Assembly: GCF_000423485.1 (NCBI RefSeq) | Contig: NZ_KE384026.1 | Location: 295,583-359,582, forward strand | Length of the DNA: 64,000 nucleotides | From: Propionimicrobium lymphophilum DSM 4903 | GTDB lineage: Bacteria > Actinomycetota > Actinomycetes > Propionibacteriales > Propionibacteriaceae | Direction of reading: 5' to 3' | Part shown: one piece after another, positions 10,869 to 21,140 of the stretch | Position numbering within the stretch: position 1 is the stretch's first letter | Layout: the number at the start of each line of letters is the position of its first letter | Made by a program: the position numbers and the translations under genes | Notes under the pieces: model-generated | Databases searched by the model: none | What the model was told of the DNA's origin: nothing | The model's input: the letters and a program-made list of their open reading frames with translations, nothing else

Positions 10869-12260
10869 ATGGCTAGGGGAATCAGATTTGTTTCAGGCGT
10901 CGCTTCGATCGCTCTTTTAGTTTCGGGGCTAACTTCAGTTTCGTGGGCTAATGAAACAGCTCAACCAGACACCCCAGCTCCTGCAGCCCCTTCTGCGGCA
11001 CCGCAAGAGCCTATCGTCCCAGCCCCGGACAACAATGATTCAGCCAACAACTCCAAAGATCATGATGGCACTGATTCTTCTGGACACCCAAATAAGCCGA
11101 ATCAAGACGAAGAAACGACAAAACCTGATTCCGGAACAACCAACAAGGATGAAAAGAAAGAAAACACAAAAAATTCTGAATCAGCTTCTGGCTCTAAAGG
11201 TTCCTCAGATATCAAACCGGTGGACGGATTCGACAAAATTACACTCGCAGACGCTGCTTCCGTAACAACGGATAAAAAGGTCATCGATGCCTTGAATGAG
11301 ATCCTCGAGATTCAGGGACGTGCGATGCGAGTAACGCAGAATCTCGAAAAGTCTAAGAAGGCTCAGGAGGAGGCCGAAAAGAAGCTTTCTCAAGCAGAAG
11401 ATCAGCTTTCAATTCAGCAAAAGAAAGTCGATGATGCGAAAGTCTCACTCGGACTGATTGCAATGTCCCAGCAGCAAGGGCACGAGACTATGGCGACGGC
11501 AAACGTCTTACTTAAGAGCGAAGACGCGCAAGGATTCCTGTCAAAGTTGGCCACCATGCGCAACGTGGGCGACATCACCAATGAGCAGCTTCGTCGAGGC
11601 CTGTCTGAATGCGAAAGGCTCGCTGACCTTAAGACAATTCGAAAAGAGCTCACTCAGAAAGCCGCCGATGAGGTTAACCGGCAGAAGGCTTTGAAGGCTG
11701 AGCACGAGGCAAAGATTAAACAGGCCGAAGAAGTGCTAGAAAAGCTCTCGCCGGGCCAATTGGATCTGTTAAAGAAGCTTAACGATACGACCATTAAGAA
11801 CAGGACTTCCAAGCTTCTAGAGGGCTCGCTTGCCGAGGGAAATTTCGATCTTAGCGGAGTAACCGGCTTACCTACAGGAAAGGGGCAGGGAATCTGGCCA
11901 GCGAGTGGCCCCCTCACTTCGCCATTTGGCTACCGGGTTAACCCCGTAGTCGGTTTTTCAGAACTTCACGACGGCACCGACATCGGCGCCCCCTGTGGTG
12001 CGCCGGTCCAGTCTGCATGGCCGGGTGTCGTCATCAGCGCTCGCTATCAAAGAGGCTACGGAAATAGGGTTCTCGTGGATTCCGGTATGTATAAGGCCAC
12101 ATACAATCACCTTTCTGGATTCGCCGTGCAGCCGGGCCAAACGGTAAAGGCTGGCCAGCTAATTGGAACGGTTGGCACAACAGGTTGGTCCACCGGATGC
12201 CACCTGCACTTTTCAACCTGGGTAAACGGCCAAATAACAGATCCGACGACAATTTTCTAA
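10869..12260 (+). CDS. Secreted M23 (LytM) peptidoglycan peptidase with coiled coil
   Basis: A 463-residue exported protein. Residues 1-30 form a Sec signal ending near SWA. A low-complexity Pro/Ala then Asp/Lys/Glu-rich linker follows to about residue 115. A long Lys/Glu/Gln coiled coil spans about 140-300, and a C-terminal M23 domain follows. The zinc and catalytic residues are present in LHDGTDIGAP (HxxxD, about residue 367), YNHLS and GCHLHF (HxH). The layout is EnvC/NlpD-like, and such proteins cut peptidoglycan or activate amidases at division sites. With the full metal set, this one is predicted to be an active enzyme. DUF421 follows after 10 bp. Confidence 0.9.
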   Translation: MARGIRFVSGVASIALLVSGLTSVSWANETAQPDTPAPAAPSAAPQEPIVPAPDNNDSANNSKDHDGTDSSGHPNKPNQDEETTKPDSGTTNKDEKKENTKNSESASGSKGSSDIKPVDGFDKITLADAASVTTDKKVIDALNEILEIQGRAMRVTQNLEKSKKAQEEAEKKLSQAEDQLSIQQKKVDDAKVSLGLIAMSQQQGHETMATANVLLKSEDAQGFLSKLATMRNVGDITNEQLRRGLSECERLADLKTIRKELTQKAADEVNRQKALKAEHEAKIKQAEEVLEKLSPGQLDLLKKLNDTTIKNRTSKLLEGSLAEGNFDLSGVTGLPTGKGQGIWPASGPLTSPFGYRVNPVVGFSELHDGTDIGAPCGAPVQSAWPGVVISARYQRGYGNRVLVDSGMYKATYNHLSGFAVQPGQTVKAGQLIGTVGTTGWSTGCHLHFSTWVNGQITDPTTIF

Positions 12261-12270
12261 AATACAAATC

Positions 12271-12807
12271 ATGAGTTTTTGGGGACAGTTTTGGCATCAA
12301 GTCGGTATTTCTCCTGCACAGCTGCTGGGTGTGGCTGTGGCTACGGTGGTCATCTACTTAGCGATTACCGCATTGCTTTACACGCTTGGCCAGCGGTTTT
12401 ACGCCAACAGGCGAAGCAGTGGCCTTGTCGTAACTCTCGTCTTGGGCTCTATCTCCGCCCGTGCCATGCTGGGAAATGCCCCTACCCTATTCGGGTGGAT
12501 GGTGGCACTAACCATAGTGATCATCATGGAAAGCATATTCGGTGTACGTCACCTTCTTGGTTTCAGGCGTAGGGCTCGCAGAGCAGAAATTATTTATGCG
12601 AACGGCGAGCCGGTAGATCGCACTATGCGTCGCTACCACATCACGCCCAGCCAGCTTCGCTCCAACCTTCGCGAAAAAGGCATCCACGACTTGTCTGAGG
12701 TGAACTTCATTTTGCTCGAGCCGAGCGGCCACCTGTCAGTCGTTAAGGGCGACTTGGATGATTCGTTGAAAGTGGATATCCGCGACGACGAGGGTTTGAT
12801 CAACTAG
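12271..12807 (+). CDS. DUF421 family membrane protein (YetF-like)
   Basis: A 178-residue protein with three N-terminal membrane segments (about residues 18-38, 48-65 and 70-90). A basic stretch (RRRARRAE) and a small cytoplasmic alpha/beta domain follow, with the family blocks IIYANGEPVDRTMRRYHIT and REKGIHDLSEVNFILLEPSG. These are typical of DUF421/YetF; the biochemical function is unknown, though Bacillus relatives such as SpoVA-linked proteins occur in sporulation. It starts 10 bp after the M23 stop with no clear Shine-Dalgarno, so it likely depends on upstream translation. Confidence 0.82.
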   Translation: MSFWGQFWHQVGISPAQLLGVAVATVVIYLAITALLYTLGQRFYANRRSSGLVVTLVLGSISARAMLGNAPTLFGWMVALTIVIIMESIFGVRHLLGFRRRARRAEIIYANGEPVDRTMRRYHITPSQLRSNLREKGIHDLSEVNFILLEPSGHLSVVKGDLDDSLKVDIRDDEGLIN

Positions 12808-12817
12808 GCTCTCTGGA

Positions 12818-12855
12818 ATAGTTAACTCGCATCTTACGTTGATGTAAGTAACTAT
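12818..12855 (+). promoter_or_regulatory. Nested hairpin just upstream of the PAC2 ribosome site
   Basis: Outer arms 12818-12824 and 12849-12855 (ATAGTTA/TAACTAT) and inner arms 12833-12837 and 12844-12848 (CTTAC/GTAAG) can fold into one stem with a left-side bulge of 8 nt. It ends 1 nt before AGGAGG, so folding could alter ribosome access or mark a processing site. There is no T-tract. Confidence 0.35.
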
Positions 12856-12867
12856 CAGGAGGTGAGT

Positions 12868-13836
12868 ATGTCTGGTTATAACTTGTTTGAATTCGCTGAT
12901 CACATCAGTCAGTCAGAGTTGGCTGCTGATGAGCGCCTGAAAACGTTGGTCGTAACCCTAAACGCTTTCGGAGATACGGGTCATACCCAGCGACTTCTGA
13001 ACAATCACATATTGAACTCTTTGCCTAATCATGAGGTCGGCAAGTTCGATTTCGACCAGCTGCACGATTACACGGATAACCGTCCAGGAATTGTTTTTGA
13101 GTTTGATCATTTTACCGACTACCAGACTCCGCAAATAGTGCTACATGAGGTCACTGACGATCAGGGCGTCCCATTTTTGCTTTTAACTGGTCCAGAGCCC
13201 TCCCTCCGTTGGGAACGGATGGCCTCTAGTATCGAGGCGCTCAATGAGCAGCTAGGTATAGAGCAGACGATCTTTCTGCAGGCTATACCCGCGCCCACGC
13301 CTCACACACGTCCTGTCTTCATTAACGCGTACGCTTCTAGGCCTGGCCTGATATCGGACTGGGACAAGCTACCCGCAACCATTCAGCTTCAGTCTTCCTT
13401 TACTGCCATGTTGGCTGTGCGCCTTGGCGAGGCTTCCCAAGACGTTTTGGGATTGGTTGCTCACATCCCGCACTATCTGGCAGACCTCGAATTCGTCGAT
13501 GGTCCGCTAGCGCTAATCAAAACTCTTCGAAAGATGGAGGAGCTCGATTTGCCGGAGGGCGAGCTGCACAAGATCTCGGAGACTACCCATGCCGCCATCG
13601 ATTCTCAGGTGGAAAGCTCCGAAGAGCTTAGAGAGGTCATCGAACAGTTAGAACGCCGCTACGACGAGTTCGTTGCCAGGCGCACACTAACCGAATCAGG
13701 TGACGAGATTCCGACGGCCGATCAGATCGGAGCTGAGGTCGAGGAATTCTTGCGTCAGATAACTGAAGATGAATCTTCGCTTAACGATGCGGATTCTGAA
13801 GACTTTGAGGGTAAAAGCGACTCCGATACCGGCTAA
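12868..13836 (+). CDS. PAC2 family protein
   Basis: A 322-residue PAC2-fold protein of the actinobacterial type. Archaeal and eukaryotic PAC2 proteins are proteasome assembly chaperones, but the bacterial role is unproven. Recognisable segments are LVVTLNAFGDTGHTQRLL, RPGIVFEFDHFTDY, LLLTGPEPSLRWE and GLVAHIPHYLADLEF. The C-terminus is a Glu-rich helical region, ending in an acidic tail. A perfect AGGAGG 5 nt before ATG fixes the start over a GTG two codons earlier. sqdB begins 38 bp downstream, suggesting co-transcription. No proteasome genes are in the window. Confidence 0.85.
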   Translation: MSGYNLFEFADHISQSELAADERLKTLVVTLNAFGDTGHTQRLLNNHILNSLPNHEVGKFDFDQLHDYTDNRPGIVFEFDHFTDYQTPQIVLHEVTDDQGVPFLLLTGPEPSLRWERMASSIEALNEQLGIEQTIFLQAIPAPTPHTRPVFINAYASRPGLISDWDKLPATIQLQSSFTAMLAVRLGEASQDVLGLVAHIPHYLADLEFVDGPLALIKTLRKMEELDLPEGELHKISETTHAAIDSQVESSEELREVIEQLERRYDEFVARRTLTESGDEIPTADQIGAEVEEFLRQITEDESSLNDADSEDFEGKSDSDTG

Positions 13837-13873
13837 GGTGGTTTGAGAGACTTTCAGTTAGGAGTTGCGCACT

Positions 13874-15094
13874 ATGAAGATCTTCGTGCTCGGTGGCGAC
13901 GGATTCTGCGGCTGGCCCGCGGCGTTGCATCTTTCAGCGATTGGTCACGACATCACGATCGTAGATAACTTTTCTCGCCGGGTAATCGACGAGGAATTAG
14001 GTGTGCAGTCTCTTACCCCTATCCGTTCCATGGTCGAGCGCAAGAAGGCCTGGAAGGAAGTTAGCGGCAAAGATCTGAATGTTGTGACGCTGAACGTAGC
14101 CAAGGAATACGACAGGTTCCTTAAGCTGCTTATCGACGAGCGCCCCGATGTCATCATCCACTTTGCCGAGCAGCGAGCAGCCCCTTATTCGATGAAGGGC
14201 AGCAAGCAGAAGCGCTACACGGTGGACAACAACACCAATGCAACCAGCAACACGCTCTGCGCGATTGTAGAGTCAGGCCTCGACATTCACCTAGTTCACT
14301 TGGGCACGATGGGTGTCTACGGTTATGGCACTGCCGGCATGAAGATCCCCGAAGGCTACCTCGACATTCAGGTCATGAGCGATGAGGATGAGCACGGCAA
14401 CCAGGTTGAGCCTCACGTCATCGAAACCCAGATCCTCTACCCCACTAACCCGGGGTCTATCTACCACATGACCAAGGTGCTGGATCAGACGCTATTCGCG
14501 TACTATGCCAAAAACGATTCGCTGCGCATTACCGACCTTCACCAGGGCATCATCTGGGGCACCCACACCGAAGAGACCCAGCTGGATGATCGTCTCATCA
14601 ACCGCTTCGACTACGACGGCGATTACGGAACTGTTTTGAACAGGTTCCTAATGCAGGCCGCGGTGGGCTACCCCTTGACCGTCCATGGGACGGGCGGCCA
14701 GACCAGGGCGTTCATTCACCTGCAAGACAGCGTTCGATGCATAGAACTAGCTATTAACAACCCGCCCCAGCGTGGGGACCGAGTCAAGATCTTCAACCAG
14801 ATGACCGAGACTCACAGGGTTCGCGATCTTGCTGCGCTGGTTTCAAAACTGACAGGCGCGAAGATCGCTAACGTTCCGGATCCGCGCAACGAGGCTCAGG
14901 AAAATGAGCTCCACGTTAAGAATGACAACTTCTTGGCTCTTGGCCTCAACCCGACGACTCTTTCCGAGGGTCTGCTCATGGAGATCAACGAGATCGCCAT
15001 GAAGTACAAGGATCGTGCGGATCTAAGAAAGATTCCTGCTCGGTCTTTGTGGACCAAGAATCAAAAGGCCGGCGTTCCCGACAATCTGGGTTAA
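13874..15094 (+). CDS. sqdB: UDP-sulfoquinovose synthase-like protein (SqdB/SQD1)
   Basis: A 406-residue extended short-chain dehydrogenase, full length for SqdB/SQD1, which makes UDP-sulfoquinovose from UDP-glucose, NAD+ and sulfite. The dinucleotide motif is GGDGFCGWPAALHLS (a distinctive SQD1 form). HFAEQRAAPYSMKG, LVHLGTMGVYGYG (the catalytic Thr/Tyr region), YHMTKVLDQ, TRAFIHLQDSVRCIELA and FNQMTETHRV all read like plant and cyanobacterial SQD1. AGGAG precedes ATG by 9 nt. The stop overlaps the start of a GT4 glycosyltransferase of SqdX type (TAATG), so the two are coupled. A generic epimerase is less likely given the number of SQD1-specific blocks. Confidence 0.88.
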   Translation: MKIFVLGGDGFCGWPAALHLSAIGHDITIVDNFSRRVIDEELGVQSLTPIRSMVERKKAWKEVSGKDLNVVTLNVAKEYDRFLKLLIDERPDVIIHFAEQRAAPYSMKGSKQKRYTVDNNTNATSNTLCAIVESGLDIHLVHLGTMGVYGYGTAGMKIPEGYLDIQVMSDEDEHGNQVEPHVIETQILYPTNPGSIYHMTKVLDQTLFAYYAKNDSLRITDLHQGIIWGTHTEETQLDDRLINRFDYDGDYGTVLNRFLMQAAVGYPLTVHGTGGQTRAFIHLQDSVRCIELAINNPPQRGDRVKIFNQMTETHRVRDLAALVSKLTGAKIANVPDPRNEAQENELHVKNDNFLALGLNPTTLSEGLLMEINEIAMKYKDRADLRKIPARSLWTKNQKAGVPDNLG

Positions 15095-16248
15095 TGCGGA
15101 TAGCGATTTTCACCGAGGTCTTCCTGCCGAAGATCGACGGTGTAGTGACTCGAGTAGTTAGAACTCTCGACGAGTTGGCTGAGCTGGGACACGAAGCTAT
15201 TGTCTTCGCGCCCGGCTCCCCTCCCCCGTCATACAAAGGGTTCAAGATAGTCAGGGTTAGGTCGTTCTCTTTTAGACCGTGGTATCCGGAGATCAAGGTT
15301 GGTCTGCCAACCCCGAATACCGCACGGAAGATGGTCAAGTTCGCCCCCGACGTAGTGCACGCAGTAAATCCAGCTGCTTTAGCAGCGTATGGTGTGCTAT
15401 CTGCAAAGCGAAGGGATATACCTCTCCTAGCCAGTTATCACACCCAGCTGAGCAGCTATACGAAGAAGCTGCATCTTGGATTGCTCACAAATACCGCCAC
15501 TAAGTGGACCAGGTATTTGCACAATAAGGCCGAGGTCAATCTCTGCACGTCTCCTCAAATGGTGGAGCGCGCCCAACAGATAGGCGTGGAGCGGGTGGAT
15601 CTTTGGCCCAAGGGCGTGGACACTAAGACCTATAGCCCCGACGCGTTTTCGAAGAAGATGCGCCGTCGCCTGACCGATGGGCATCCGGATGAGCCCCTGG
15701 CTATTTACGCTGGCCGCTTGTCCAGCGAGAAAAATCTTGAAGACCTTTTGCCAGTCGTTCACCAGATGCCGAATGTTCGATTCGCTTTCATAGGTTCCGG
15801 CCCGGCCTCCGACCGTCTGAAATCGATGTTTAGCGGCACCAAGACCGTCTTCACCGGCTATCTGCGCGGCCACGAGCTAGCGGCGGCCTATGCCAGCGCC
15901 GACGTCTTTTTGTTTCCGTCGACCACCGAGACTCTCGGTTTTGCGGGTCTGGAGTCCATGGCTTCCGGCGTTCCCGTCATCGGCGCTAACGCGGGTGGGA
16001 TTCCCGATCTCATCGATGAAGGCGTGACCGGTTTTCTCGTCCCGCCCGAGGGCGAAGAAAAAACTAATGCCTATGTTGATCGGCTGAATCAGTTAATCGA
16101 AGATCCTGGCAAGAGGGCAGAAATGTCTAAGCTCGCCCGTGCAGAGGCCGAACGTCACTCGTGGCGCGGTGCCACGGAAAAGCTCGTCGAGTTCTACCGC
16201 TTGGCGATCGATCGTCATGGCAGTTACAAGCAGGCTTTACCCGAGTAA
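15094..16248 (+). CDS. sqdX: GT4 glycosyltransferase, SqdX/SQD2-like (sulfoquinovosyl diacylglycerol synthase)
   Basis: A 384-residue GT-B retaining glycosyltransferase. It would transfer sulfoquinovose from UDP-sulfoquinovose to diacylglycerol at the inner face of the membrane. The N-terminal acceptor half opens with MRIAIFTEVFLPKIDGVV. The donor half carries LWPKGVD, YAGRLSSEKNLEDL, VFTGYLRGHELAAAYASADV and the EX7E motif in ETLGFAGLE (about residue 279), followed by GIPDLI. The order and spacing match SQD2. The closest alternative is a PimB/MgtA-type mannosyltransferase, which has the same opening motif; the adjacent sqdB favours the sulfolipid role. Start ATG shares a base with the sqdB stop. 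Confidence 0.8.
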   Translation: MRIAIFTEVFLPKIDGVVTRVVRTLDELAELGHEAIVFAPGSPPPSYKGFKIVRVRSFSFRPWYPEIKVGLPTPNTARKMVKFAPDVVHAVNPAALAAYGVLSAKRRDIPLLASYHTQLSSYTKKLHLGLLTNTATKWTRYLHNKAEVNLCTSPQMVERAQQIGVERVDLWPKGVDTKTYSPDAFSKKMRRRLTDGHPDEPLAIYAGRLSSEKNLEDLLPVVHQMPNVRFAFIGSGPASDRLKSMFSGTKTVFTGYLRGHELAAAYASADVFLFPSTTETLGFAGLESMASGVPVIGANAGGIPDLIDEGVTGFLVPPEGEEKTNAYVDRLNQLIEDPGKRAEMSKLARAEAERHSWRGATEKLVEFYRLAIDRHGSYKQALPE

Positions 16249-16377
16249 AGTGCTGGACCTTGCTAGGGCTGATTTTGTCACTAAATAACTGATAATTCAG
16301 AGCTTGTTTTATTGATGAGACAGGGTGTCGCGCTAGGATTGTTTAAGCGAATTATCCACTACTTTAGCGAGTCTGTA

Positions 16378-16812
16378 ATGAACGATTGCCCACATTTTCG
16401 TATCTCTAAGCCCTTTCTAATTGCACTAGCAGGAATTGTCTGGTGTATTGCGGGCTTCAATGTGACTCGGATCGGCGTTTCAGCGCTGTCCAGCAGCACG
16501 TTGCCGGCCCCGTGGATTTGTCTCATGCCAGTTGTGGTGTTTGCGGCGTTCGGGGCGATGTTCACAAAGTCAGCGGGCAAGCACGTGAACCGGATCCGAT
16601 CGAACCCTGCCAAGGCAAGACCCTTTTGGCATTTCTTTGATGCTCGCGCCTACTTGATCATGGCAATCATGATGACGGCTGGCTTCGGGCTTCGCGGTGC
16701 AGGAGTGCTGCCAGACACTTTCGTTTCGTTCTTCTATACAGGGCTGGGAGCGGCGCTGGCTTGTGCTGGTGGCTTTTTCTTGGTCAAGTCCCTAACGTAC
16801 CGTCGCTCATAG
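16378..16812 (+). CDS. Small four-helix membrane protein, unrecognised
   Basis: A 144-residue protein that I do not recognise. It has four hydrophobic segments (about residues 12-34, 42-60, 85-105 and 112-135) joined by short loops, one rich in basic residues (KHVNRIRSNPAKARP). The sequence IAGFNVTRIG near the first helix and FFYTGLGAALACAGGFF in the last look like conserved family blocks. The chosen ATG removes a poorly hydrophobic extension; ATG at 16315 in the same frame is possible. It lies 130 bp after sqdX in the same direction and may share its transcript. No function is proposed. Confidence 0.6.
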   Translation: MNDCPHFRISKPFLIALAGIVWCIAGFNVTRIGVSALSSSTLPAPWICLMPVVVFAAFGAMFTKSAGKHVNRIRSNPAKARPFWHFFDARAYLIMAIMMTAGFGLRGAGVLPDTFVSFFYTGLGAALACAGGFFLVKSLTYRRS

Positions 16813-16872
16813 AGCTGACCAAGCGCAATAAATAAAGCCTTTTTGCTAACGACTATTCGCCGCTACAACCGC

Positions 16873-16878
16873 TAAGGT
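16873..16878 (+). promoter_or_regulatory. Candidate -10 (TAAGGT) of the leaderless MmeI-like gene
   Basis: TAAGGT ends 7 nt before the GTG start and there is no Shine-Dalgarno. It supports GTG at 16886 as the first codon of a leaderless mRNA. Confidence 0.5.
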
Positions 16879-16885
16879 ACACAGG

Positions 16886-19684
16886 GTGGATGTTTCGTGG
16901 AATGTGGCGGCGAGAAACAGAAAGCTGACCGCTAAGGAATTTGCTGATAAGTGGGCTGACAGGGGCTACGAGAAGGGCGATACGGGTTCTTTTTGGCTAG
17001 AACTCCTCGGAGACGTCATCGGCATGGAGGACGTTACCTCGAACGTCCATTTCGAGCACCGCACCTCCAAAAAAGGCTTTGTGGACGTCATAGTCCCCGA
17101 CGCCAAAACTTTCATCGAGCAGAAGTCCTTAGGAGTCGATCTCGATAGGCCAGAAGAGCGGCAGGGCCGCCTGGTCACGCCTTTTGAGCAGGCAAAGGCC
17201 TACGCCGACTCCATGCCGAACTCGCAGCGCCCCGACACCATCATCGTCTGCAACTTCGAGACCTTCAGAATCCACAGTCTCGAGAGCGAGGACCCGGCGA
17301 ACGAATACGTCGAATTCCAGCTTTCCGAGCTTCCCGAGCAGATCTACCTGCTCGATTTCCTAATCGATCCGCAGCGTTCACGTCGTAAGCGCGAAGAGAA
17401 GGTTTCGTTAGATGCAGGCGCCCTAATCGGTAAGATCTACGAGATGCTGCGTGGGCAATACCACGACCCGGACACGCCGGAAAGCCAGCACAGCCTTAAC
17501 GTGCTCTGCGTGCGCCTGGTCTTTTGCTTGTTTGCCGAGGACGCGGAGATCTTTCCTAAGGATGCTTTCTACAACTATCTCCAGGGCCTGCCTGCCAGAC
17601 AGGTGCGGGTAGCCCTGAAGGAATTGTTCAGATACTTGGACACAAAGCCGGAAGATCGCGACCCGTACGTTTCCGAAGAGCTAAAACGCTTCCCTTACGT
17701 AAACGGCGGTCTTTTCGCGCAAGATGTGGAGATACCGCAGTTCACCGAAGAGATCTTGGGCGTACTGCTCAACGAGGTGAGCGAAGGCACGAACTGGTCA
17801 CAAATCTCCCCCACGATTTTCGGTGGCGTATTCGAGTCCACCCTCAACCCCGAGACGCGCCGCAGCGGTGGAATGCACTACACGTCTCCGGAGAACATCC
17901 ACAAGGTCATCGACCCTCTTTTCTTGGACGATCTGAAAGGTGAGCTTGCCGGCATCCTCAATGATTCTTCATTGGGTGAGAGGGCTCGAAGGAACAGGCT
18001 GGAAAAGTACCACGACAAGTTGGCGTCGCTAACGTTTTTCGATCCAGCATGTGGATCCGGAAATTTTCTTTCGGAGACTTACATCTCTCTGCGCAGGCTC
18101 GAGACCAAGGTTCTAAGCGAATTGAGCCACGGCCAGACCTCGATGGTCTTCGATGAGAGCCATTCGCCGCTGAAGGTTTCGCTGAGTCAATTCCACGGCA
18201 TCGAGATAAATGATTTCGCGGTTCAGGTTTCGAACACCGCGCTGTGGATCGCCGAGCTTCAAGCAAATGCGGAGGCCCAGGTGGTGGTGACCCAAGACAT
18301 CGAGGATCTACCGCTCAAAGACAACGCCCGAGTGACTCGCGCAAACGCGCTACGGGTCGATTGGGCCGATATTCTGCCCGTCAAAGAGTGCAATTACATA
18401 ATCGGGAACCCACCGTTTATCGGTTATTCGAATCACTCGGCCGAGCAGAAAAAGGATCGCGCCGAGCTGTTCGGCAAAGGCGGTGGCGTGCTCGACTACG
18501 TGGCCTGCTGGTACAAGAAGGCCGCCGATTACATGCAAGGCACTCACATCCGCGCCGCACTGGTGTCCACCAACAGCATCTGCCAGGGCCAACAGGTAAC
18601 GCCACTCTGGCGGCTGCTATTCGATCAGGGAATCCGCTTCAACTTCGCCCACCGCAGTTTTGTGTGGGGCAACGAGGCCGAAGATCAGGCGCACGTGCAC
18701 GTGGTAATCATCGGCTTCTCCTACGACGACGTGACTCCTAAATACCTGTTCGCCTACCCCAAGGGCGAGAAGGAGATTCGTCGCCAGGTGAGCCACATCA
18801 ACGGATATCTGGCAGAGGCGCCTGATGTGTTCGTGGATAAACAAACAAAACCTTTATCTGACGTTCCGGCTATGGCCCAGGGGTTTAAACCGGCAGACGG
18901 CCAAAATCTGCTCCTCACTTCCGAGCAGAAAGACGAGCTGCTGGCGAAAGAACCTGAGGCAGAAAAATGGGTCAGACCATTCTCGATGGGCGCCGAATTC
19001 ATTAAAGGGGTCGACCGATACTGTTTGTGGCTACCCGAGATAATAGGCGCTGAATTGCAGAAAGTTCCTGAGGTTCGCAAGCACGTTGACGCCTGTCGTG
19101 AGTGGCGTCTACAGCAGACACCAACAGGCGACGCGTTCAAGCTTGCTGATCGACCACACCTGCTAAGGCCATGCGGGAAGTTCAGGGATGGAACCTACAT
19201 CGGCTTCCCTGTAGTTTCTTCAGAACGCCGAGAGTACGTTCCTATCGGCTTTGTCGACAACGGCATGATCCCTGGAAATCAGCTCTATTTCATACCGACA
19301 GGCGAGATCTATTTTTTCGGCGTTATTAGTTCTCAGTTCCACAACGCCTGGATGCGAACTGTCGCGGGAAGACTCGAGATGCGCTATAGATACGGCAACA
19401 CCACCGTCTACAACACGTTCGTCTGGCCCTCCCCCACGCCTGCTCAGCGAAACGAGATCGAGTCCGCGGCAACCGCCGTGCTGGAAGCCAGGGAGAAGTA
19501 CTCACCGGCCACGCTGGCAGACCTTTACGATCCCGACAGCGACTGGCTATATCCAGAGCTGACTTCTGCCCACAAACGCCTGGATCGTGCCGTCGAGGCG
19601 GCCTACGGAGTCGACTTCGACGGTGACGAGACGGCAATCGTTGCTCACCTCTTCTCGCTGTATGCAAAGGCAACCGCCGAATAA
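16886..19684 (+). CDS. MmeI-like (Type IIL) restriction-modification enzyme
   Basis: A 932-residue single polypeptide, close to MmeI (919 residues). The N-terminal endonuclease domain shows FWLELLGDVIG and the D-EXK core in VDVIVPDAKTFIEQKSLG (Glu and Lys near residues 78-80). A helical spacer and then a gamma-class N6-adenine methyltransferase follow, with motif I FDPACGSGNF (about 386) and motif IV NPPF (about 508). A C-terminal target-recognition part contains RYRYGNTTVYNTFVWP. Such enzymes methylate one adenine of a short asymmetric site and cut about 20 nt away, one subunit doing all three tasks. No separate specificity or helicase gene adjoins. Recognition sequence cannot be told from here. 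Confidence 0.88.
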   Translation: MDVSWNVAARNRKLTAKEFADKWADRGYEKGDTGSFWLELLGDVIGMEDVTSNVHFEHRTSKKGFVDVIVPDAKTFIEQKSLGVDLDRPEERQGRLVTPFEQAKAYADSMPNSQRPDTIIVCNFETFRIHSLESEDPANEYVEFQLSELPEQIYLLDFLIDPQRSRRKREEKVSLDAGALIGKIYEMLRGQYHDPDTPESQHSLNVLCVRLVFCLFAEDAEIFPKDAFYNYLQGLPARQVRVALKELFRYLDTKPEDRDPYVSEELKRFPYVNGGLFAQDVEIPQFTEEILGVLLNEVSEGTNWSQISPTIFGGVFESTLNPETRRSGGMHYTSPENIHKVIDPLFLDDLKGELAGILNDSSLGERARRNRLEKYHDKLASLTFFDPACGSGNFLSETYISLRRLETKVLSELSHGQTSMVFDESHSPLKVSLSQFHGIEINDFAVQVSNTALWIAELQANAEAQVVVTQDIEDLPLKDNARVTRANALRVDWADILPVKECNYIIGNPPFIGYSNHSAEQKKDRAELFGKGGGVLDYVACWYKKAADYMQGTHIRAALVSTNSICQGQQVTPLWRLLFDQGIRFNFAHRSFVWGNEAEDQAHVHVVIIGFSYDDVTPKYLFAYPKGEKEIRRQVSHINGYLAEAPDVFVDKQTKPLSDVPAMAQGFKPADGQNLLLTSEQKDELLAKEPEAEKWVRPFSMGAEFIKGVDRYCLWLPEIIGAELQKVPEVRKHVDACREWRLQQTPTGDAFKLADRPHLLRPCGKFRDGTYIGFPVVSSERREYVPIGFVDNGMIPGNQLYFIPTGEIYFFGVISSQFHNAWMRTVAGRLEMRYRYGNTTVYNTFVWPSPTPAQRNEIESAATAVLEAREKYSPATLADLYDPDSDWLYPELTSAHKRLDRAVEAAYGVDFDGDETAIVAHLFSLYAKATAE

Positions 19685-20372: not shown

Positions 20373-21140
20373 ATGTCTATCGTCTTTGCGCTCGTCATCG
20401 GCCTGGTCATCGGCCTGGTCGTCGGTGCCCTGGGCGCTGGCGGCGGAATCCTTTCGATACCCGCGCTTGTTTTCCTGCTGGGGCAACCTCCGCATGAGGC
20501 ATCAGTTGGTTCTTTGATCATCGTGGGAACCACCTCGCTGATATCGCTAATTCCCAGGTCCATGGACAATCAGGTGCGATGGAAAGAGGGCATCACCTTT
20601 GGAGCCCTATCTACCGTCGCAACCTTTTTCGGTTCCAGGCTTTCGTTACTTGTCAGCGCGGATCTTCTGATGCTAGCACTGGGGATTCTCCTAGCCGTGG
20701 TCGGAATCATCCTTTTCCGCAGCACTTTCAAAAACAAGAAGCCGGCAGACGATTCGATGAAAGGCAAAGCTAAAAAGAGCGTTTTGGCTCTCATCGCGTG
20801 CGCAAGCCTGACAGGGCTGTTGACCGGTTTCTTCGGTGTGGGCGGAGGGTTCGTCGTCGTTCCCATGCTGATCCTAGCGCTCGGCTTCAACATCAGAGAC
20901 GCTTCAGGCACCTCTCTTCTGGTCATGGTTATCTCATCTGCAACAGGTTTGATCTCGCGTATCGGGGCAGATTTCACCATGGAATGGCCGATCATCATCG
21001 CCTTCGCCCTGGCATCAATGGTGGGCGGGCTGGTTGGAGCTCCGGCGTCTCGAAAGGTCAAGGAAAATATACTCACCAGAATCTTCGCGTTGCTGCTTCT
21101 GGGCGTCTCGACGGGGACTCTCTACTCCGTCCTGCCATAA
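20373..21140 (+). CDS. TauE/SafE family sulfite/anion exporter
   Basis: A 255-residue membrane protein with about eight helices. It has the two-fold family repeat: GLVVGALGAGGGILSIPAL in the first half and TGLLTGFFGVGGGFVVVP in the second. Family members export sulfite, sulfoacetate or other small anions, and some are of unknown substrate. It starts directly at the SGNH stop. The sqdB gene 5 kb upstream uses sulfite, which makes sulfur handling a tempting but unproven link. A strong terminator follows. Confidence 0.88.
   Translation: MSIVFALVIGLVIGLVVGALGAGGGILSIPALVFLLGQPPHEASVGSLIIVGTTSLISLIPRSMDNQVRWKEGITFGALSTVATFFGSRLSLLVSADLLMLALGILLAVVGIILFRSTFKNKKPADDSMKGKAKKSVLALIACASLTGLLTGFFGVGGGFVVVPMLILALGFNIRDASGTSLLVMVISSATGLISRIGADFTMEWPIIIAFALASMVGGLVGAPASRKVKENILTRIFALLLLGVSTGTLYSVLP

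Follow-up and report, generated by a model that had tools for sequence, protein, structure and literature searches.

Does a bacterium that apparently carries out no photosynthesis encode the synthesis of sulfoquinovosyl diacylglycerol (SQDG), a sulfolipid associated chiefly with photosynthetic membranes (2026 review, PMC12890257)? This question is raised by two adjoining genes at positions 13874-16248 of a 64,000-nucleotide stretch of the genome of Propionimicrobium lymphophilum DSM 4903 (hereafter, the window), which a preliminary description had read as an SQDG operon. This reading is most likely right: we put at roughly 80% the probability that the pair is a two-gene sqdBX operon for SQDG synthesis, encoding a uridine diphosphate (UDP)-sulfoquinovose synthase (SqdB) and a glycosyltransferase of family GT4 (SqdX). 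It is based on the affiliation of the first protein with a known SqdB class, the SqdX-like character of the GT4, the conserved pairing of the two genes, and their sqdB-sqdX order. Gene integrity, coupling, homology, residues, phylogeny, and pair conservation are observed directly. Both open reading frames are uninterrupted and, as had been described, coupled, the stop codon of sqdB and the start codon of sqdX sharing one base (TAATG). All seven motifs quoted in that description occur in the translations. Chance resemblance can be discounted, because the first protein matches Arabidopsis SQD1 and the second matches the GT4 domains of Pfam.

The two enzymatic steps, the use of diacylglycerol as acceptor, and the function of SQDG are inferred by analogy with characterised relatives. 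SqdB would bind nicotinamide adenine dinucleotide (NAD+) and UDP-glucose, and oxidation and dehydration would yield a 4-keto-5,6-ene, to which the enzyme would add sulfite to form UDP-sulfoquinovose. SqdX would transfer the sulfoquinovose to diacylglycerol, and the resulting anionic SQDG could substitute for phosphatidylglycerol or other anionic phospholipids, perhaps in the phosphate-sparing role that had been suggested.

With regard to the first protein, phmmer matches it to Arabidopsis SQD1 (1i24) with an E-value of 6.4e-95 over residues 2-395 of 406, which amounts to full-length SDR homology to a protein of solved structure. It is 63% identical to an SqdB-like protein of Sinorhizobium meliloti, whose gene we take to be the genetically characterised sqdB, and about 63% identical to the SqdB of Prochlorococcus. 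The GxxGxxG motif lies at residues 7-13 (G7, G10, and G13), and the catalytic residues H96, R101, T145, M146, Y197, and K201 are all present. In Agl3, the UDP-sulfoquinovose synthase of Sulfolobus acidocaldarius, the alanine mutants of His95, Arg101, Met145, Tyr182, and Lys186 lack activity according to the cited text (PMC4388408). These positions correspond to H96, R101, M146, Y197, and K201 of the window protein, as judged visually from the HFAEQR, GTMG, and YxxxK motifs.

The phylogeny of SqdB supports the SqdB/SQD1 reading of the first gene. In a carefully built 60-row tree, whose outgroup does not extend beyond SqdB, the window protein belongs to a class with the Sinorhizobium and Prochlorococcus proteins, the stem of which has a support of 100/100, rather than with other epimerases. 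This class also holds Loktanella, Cyanobium, Trueperaceae, and many Actinomycetota, and the 14 actinobacterial rows with an adjoining GT4 form a single group within the tree (96/99). SQD1 and seven of the 11 cyanobacterial SqdB rows form the other SqdB class, these seven having about 42-43% identity with the window protein. Rows L010, L069, L091, L099, L111, and L157 are omitted from the tree, and a long row, L014, is kept with an unsure placement.

The second protein exhibits the GT4 domains PF13439 and PF00534 (best E-values 1e-31 and 4e-29) and the E-x7-E motif, which consists of E279 and E287 in ETLGFAGLE. Its identity averages 46.4% (45-48%, 14 rows) to cyanobacterial SqdX, 44.5% (10 rows) to other actinobacterial GT4s, and 34.4% (32-37%, nine rows) to family paralogues that we label MgtA-like from their NGVTxSV start. 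The name SqdX for the cyanobacterial rows derives mostly from their position beside SqdB rather than from an assay. At 21 positions, chosen by this very rule on the same alignment, at least 36 of the 37 SqdX rows share a conserved residue that no more than one of the nine MgtA-like rows has. Careful phylogenies unite the actinobacterial GT4s with those of Trueperaceae at a support of 100/99 and next join both to cyanobacterial SqdX, with a support of 96/90 in the 56-row tree and of 90/84 when L257 is kept. L257 is a long row, labelled MgtA-like, which fell near SqdX in one careful tree and was omitted from the 56-row tree. In a quick tree with remote GT4s, including our own L250, L251, and L253, which were omitted from both careful trees, the grouping with cyanobacterial SqdX has a support of 86; L252 yielded no match. 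The GT4 tree drew on 32 of the 80 best loci in named genomes, which are described below. The nine MgtA-like rows form a clade of their own in the best tree, which excludes the window GT4 (100/100). The phylogeny thus places neither the GT4 firmly with mannosyltransferases nor SqdB with other epimerases, and the SqdX placement of the window GT4 can be regarded as well supported, short of proof.

The linkage of this GT4 to sqdB, which takes the form of a one-base overlap in the window, recurs in other genomes. Among genomes of the family Propionibacteriaceae (117 searched for SqdB and 114 for the GT4), the SqdB class of the window, assigned by identity to the window protein, is found in 18, at 66-82% identity outside the window's own genome, and the GT4 adjoins it in 16 of these. 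In G085 (locus L274, with the match numbers of L168), the SqdB gene is truncated at the contig start and has a frame break close to its end; it is included in the count as present. A GT4 at 58-75% identity is present in 15 family genomes besides the window's own, each time beside SqdB, so that every GT4 of the family with at least 58% identity to that of the window adjoins SqdB (16/16). A second GT4, at 33-39% identity, is common across the family, and one genome, G027, has the other SqdB class together with a GT4 41% identical to that of the window.

An alignment-based scan of named genomes, limited to the 80 best GT4 loci and therefore no census, gave 21 actinobacterial, seven Trueperaceae, and 52 cyanobacterial loci. 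The actinobacterial genera are Propionibacterium, Kocuria, Citricoccus, Brevibacterium, Serinicoccus, Corynebacterium, Zimmermannella, and Gulosibacter, and the Trueperaceae (Deinococcota) also carry the pair. SqdB is encoded in the fetched stretch of 68 of these 80 loci, i.e. all 21 actinobacterial, five of the seven Trueperaceae, and 42 of the 52 cyanobacterial ones. Of the 12 others, L193, L201, L203, and L243 span less than 9 kb and are cut by a contig end, and SqdB was not found within 5-6 kb of the GT4 in the remaining eight. When 35 distinct loci (most extending 6 kb from the GT4 in both directions, some not as far, with L194 counted once) were compared with the window neighbourhood, the pair alone was common between genera, wider surroundings being common to L059 only. 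In a sample of 396 genomes of the phylum, a more remote branch, family f19, has GT4s that are 44-49% identical to that of G027; these occur in 34 genomes besides the window's, in 13 of which their coordinates place them directly next to SqdB. An SqdB-like gene is present in 96 of the 396 genomes at an E-value of at most 1e-70. The rarity that had been claimed is therefore weaker than stated, all the more so as a gene of Propionibacterium freudenreichii is already in print.

Several observations weigh against the sqdBX reading. The window SqdB matches the NCBIfam model of UDP-sulfoquinovose synthase, NF041015, with an E-value of 1e-99 and 334 bits, below the curated cut-off of 575, which we did not treat as defining. 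It has a valine, Val148, where Agl3 has Glu147. The best NCBIfam match of the window GT4 is N-acetylglucosaminyl phosphatidylglycerol synthase (NF053787), at 152.6 bits and thus under its cut-off of 480. The approximately unbiased (AU) test keeps a tree that unites the actinobacterial, Trueperaceae, and MgtA-like GT4s (log-likelihood 8.35 lower, p = 0.25). In two of the 18 family genomes with the SqdB class of the window, G106 and G113, no GT4 adjoins SqdB. Finally, neither PF01507, the family of the 3'-phosphoadenosine 5'-phosphosulfate (PAPS) and adenosine 5'-phosphosulfate (APS) reductases, nor the sulfite-reductase domain NIR_SIR was found in the window genome; the same searches were positive in 14 and 11 of 14 control genomes, respectively.

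The missed NF041015 cut-off says little, because the S. meliloti protein (332 bits) falls equally short, and we reject it as an argument against SqdB; homologues from Pelagovum, Loktanella, and Rhodococcus score 317-344 bits, and the cut-off fails to cover the SqdB class of the window. The S. meliloti protein also has a valine in place of Glu147, and we treat this position as a difference between SqdB classes, not as a defining one; in Agl3, the E147A mutant retains 12.4% of the activity. As for the AU test, it qualifies the SqdX/SQD2 reading that had been given to the second gene: the grouping with cyanobacterial SqdX, outside the MgtA-like clade, is that of the best tree, whereas a nearer kinship with MgtA-like enzymes is not rejected at p = 0.25.

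Among the alternatives, the one that survives best, although it is unlikely, is that SqdB makes UDP-sulfoquinovose and that the GT4 transfers the sugar to another acceptor, for example a different glycolipid, phosphatidylglycerol, or a glycan of the wall or surface. Acceptor choice cannot be revealed by sequence, and in NCBIfam the GT4 comes closest to a phosphatidylglycerol glycosyltransferase. Furthermore, the SqdB class of the window has other partners in other Actinomycetota (neighbours read for ten chosen proteins in eight loci): GT2 genes in L048, with DUF2304, in L054, where an LPG_synthase_TM protein comes next, and in L055, and an aldo/keto reductase in L051. The GT2 neighbours, those of L048 and L054 in particular, suggest varied uses of sulfoquinovose, which would go to other products in these GT2-paired Actinomycetota. 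Since the same class is paired with GT2 there, sqdB alone is no proof of SQDG, and the SqdX partner appears to be the better sign of this lipid. It is this partner that argues for diacylglycerol in the window, as the GT4 joins cyanobacterial SqdX (96/90), exhibits the 21 common positions absent from MgtA-like enzymes, and follows sqdB in the order known from cyanobacteria (PMC7401256).

SqdB relatives were also seen in further contexts. In L061, an SqdB outside the class of the window stands beside a GT2 with DUF2304. In L013, a plasmid of Rhodococcus qingshengii, SqdB is followed by two large genes, one encoding a hypothetical protein with a sub-cut-off BcsB match and the other a glycosyltransferase, and genes for an alkyl sulfatase and a SulP transporter lie in the vicinity. 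Among phage contigs of IMG/VR, 96 of 124 pattern matches encode SqdB relatives, of which 80 were kept (L088-L167); in these 80 stretches, no gene for a GT4 like that of the window or for an SqdD-like protein was found at an E-value of at most 1e-15. One of these, L111, has the phage genes PhoH and exonuclease and a sub-cut-off GT8 Pfam match beside SqdB.

The source of sulfite bears on whether the sqdBX operon is in use. The window genome has a size of 2.04 Mb, is rated 100% complete, and belongs to the Propionibacteriaceae, not to an Actinomycetaceae-like lineage as first supposed. Its apparent lack of photosynthesis is confirmed by the absence of a Photo_RC gene, the control being positive only in Synechococcus. 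As neither PF01507 nor NIR_SIR is matched, the cell has to import sulfite or obtain it by another route, or else the operon is idle, the routes searched being those named here. The last case, in which an intact operon is a relic left without sulfite after the loss of sulfate reduction, is improbable, more so than a different acceptor. PF01507 is matched in 16 of the 19 SqdB-bearing family genomes, the exceptions being the window genome (G000), G012, and G071, and the matches of G016 and G085 are weak, so the window genome is not alone in this respect. Both genes are nevertheless intact and retain the catalytic residues, and G012, with a genome of 2.0 Mb and no PF01507, retains the pair at 81% and 72% identity. 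Moreover, the two rhodanese-family matches of the window genome, or uptake, could provide sulfite. Where PF01507 genes are present, some lie near SqdB: they are 1.3-3.9 kb away from it in G106 and G113, and a PAPS reductase gene directly follows SqdB on a Pelagovum plasmid (L012), which fits the use of sulfite. The TauE/SafE-family gene located 4.1 kb 3' of sqdX was considered as a linked sulfite transporter and dropped, as it has no match in the 35 compared loci.

The weakest alternative, in which the second gene would encode an MgtA/PimB-type mannosyl- or glucosyltransferase of actinobacteria that lies beside sqdB by chance, draws on membership of the same GT4 family, the 32-37% identity to MgtA-like paralogues, and the AU test, and we dismiss it as very improbable, given the separate MgtA-like clade and the 21 differing positions, the confinement of close GT4s to the side of SqdB in the family, and the presence of a distinct MgtA-like gene in the window genome (G000:C6:33533-34633).

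The features of the region are listed in the table. The PAC2-family gene (Pfam) that precedes sqdB is not retained as a component of the system, since it is present in only one of the 35 loci, L059, an 81% relative. No terminator-like site was found in the gap between the two genes, and over positions 12200-16900 the counts of promoter- and terminator-like sites did not exceed those of shuffled sequence. The GC content at third codon positions is 70% in sqdB, resembling that of the nearby methyltransferase (68%) and TauE (65%) genes, and it was therefore dropped as a sign of recent transfer.

Table. Coordinates of the sqdBX pair and of nearby features in the window
Feature	Position	Strand	Remarks
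Gap between PAC2-family gene and sqdB	13837..13873	+	37 bases; AGGAG at 13860-13864 precedes the start codon
sqdB-like gene, predicted UDP-sulfoquinovose synthase of the rhizobial/Prochlorococcus class	13874..15094	+	406 residues; ATG 13874, TAA 15094
sqdX-like gene, GT4, predicted sulfoquinovosyl-diacylglycerol synthase	15094..16248	+	384 residues; ATG 15094, TAA 16248
Open frame right after sqdX	16312..16812		166 residues; no Pfam match
MmeI-like restriction-modification gene	16886..19684		shortly 3' of the pair
TauE/SafE-family membrane protein gene	20373..21140		

Taken further, these results lead to a broader proposal, which we consider to have an even chance of being correct: this 2.0 Mb propionibacterium would make SQDG as a standing anionic lipid from sulfite that is scavenged or derived from thiosulfate or cysteine, the synthesis having outlived sulfate assimilation, and sqdBX would mark SQDG makers without photosynthesis among Propionibacteriaceae, Corynebacterium, Micrococcaceae, Brevibacterium, and Trueperaceae. 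Skin and dairy are home to propionibacteria, corynebacteria, and related genera. If the proposal is true, SQDG would be a membrane lipid of such ordinary heterotrophs, which would constitute local sources of sulfoquinovose for the bacteria that degrade it. The window genome also raises a testable question, namely the origin of the sulfite used for SQDG. In a limited search of the open-licence literature, the matches listed included no SQDG measurement for Propionibacteriaceae, Corynebacterium, Kocuria, or Brevibacterium, and no report of the sqdBX pair in Actinomycetota.

Compared with known systems, the pair most resembles the cyanobacterial sqdBX. In Synechococcus elongatus PCC 7942, sqdB and sqdX are consecutive (Synpcc7942_0578/0579) and likely form an operon, according to the cited text (PMC7401256). 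The window shares the sqdB-then-sqdX order, the short spacing, and a GT4 of the SqdX clade, and 26 of the 42 cyanobacterial SqdB-bearing loci, from Prochlorococcus, Cyanobium, and Synechococcus, have the SqdB class of the window, as assigned by a score above 500 bits to its SqdB. Prochlorococcus makes SQDG. The differences are that the host of the window is non-photosynthetic, with no gene for sulfate or sulfite reduction found, and that its SqdX is only 45-48% identical to the cyanobacterial ones. In four loci from Prochlorococcus, Synechococcus, and Cyanobium (L200, L219, L242, and L244), SqdX groups with other cyanobacteria, but the SqdB is of the rhizobial/actinobacterial class; in this branch, sqdB seems to have been replaced inside the sqdBX operon.

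The sqdBDC system of Sinorhizobium and Rhodobacterales, described in the cited text for Rba. sphaeroides (PMC11346425), has the same SqdB class, with identities of 63-66% to the window protein for Sinorhizobium, Loktanella, and Pelagovum, and some rhizobia contain sulfolipid (PMC3972451, in the part cited). In contrast to the window, a GT8 gene takes the place of the GT4 after SqdB in the two loci from Sinorhizobium and Loktanella; in S. meliloti, this is the arrangement expected for sqdB-sqdD. The plant SQD1/SQD2 system and many cyanobacterial SqdB share the proposed reactions, and the homology to SQD1 extends over nearly the full length, whereas SQD1 and the seven cyanobacterial rows mentioned above belong to the other SqdB class. 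Agl3 is likewise a UDP-sulfoquinovose synthase with common catalytic residues; it differs in the Glu147 position and in serving glycoprotein glycans rather than a lipid, as far as the cited text goes (PMC4388408).

The nearest relative in print is PFREUD_00050 of P. freudenreichii, an SqdB from the same bacterial family, which a tree legend, drawing on databases, lists as a UDP-sulfoquinovose synthase along with proteins of Mycobacterium vanbaalenii and Saccharopolyspora erythraea; the same text states that such genes exist in non-photosynthetic bacteria (PMC4388408). The pair described here is a new sqdBX member and, for a non-photosynthetic propionibacterium, a well-supported one, ordinary in kind and mildly surprising in place.

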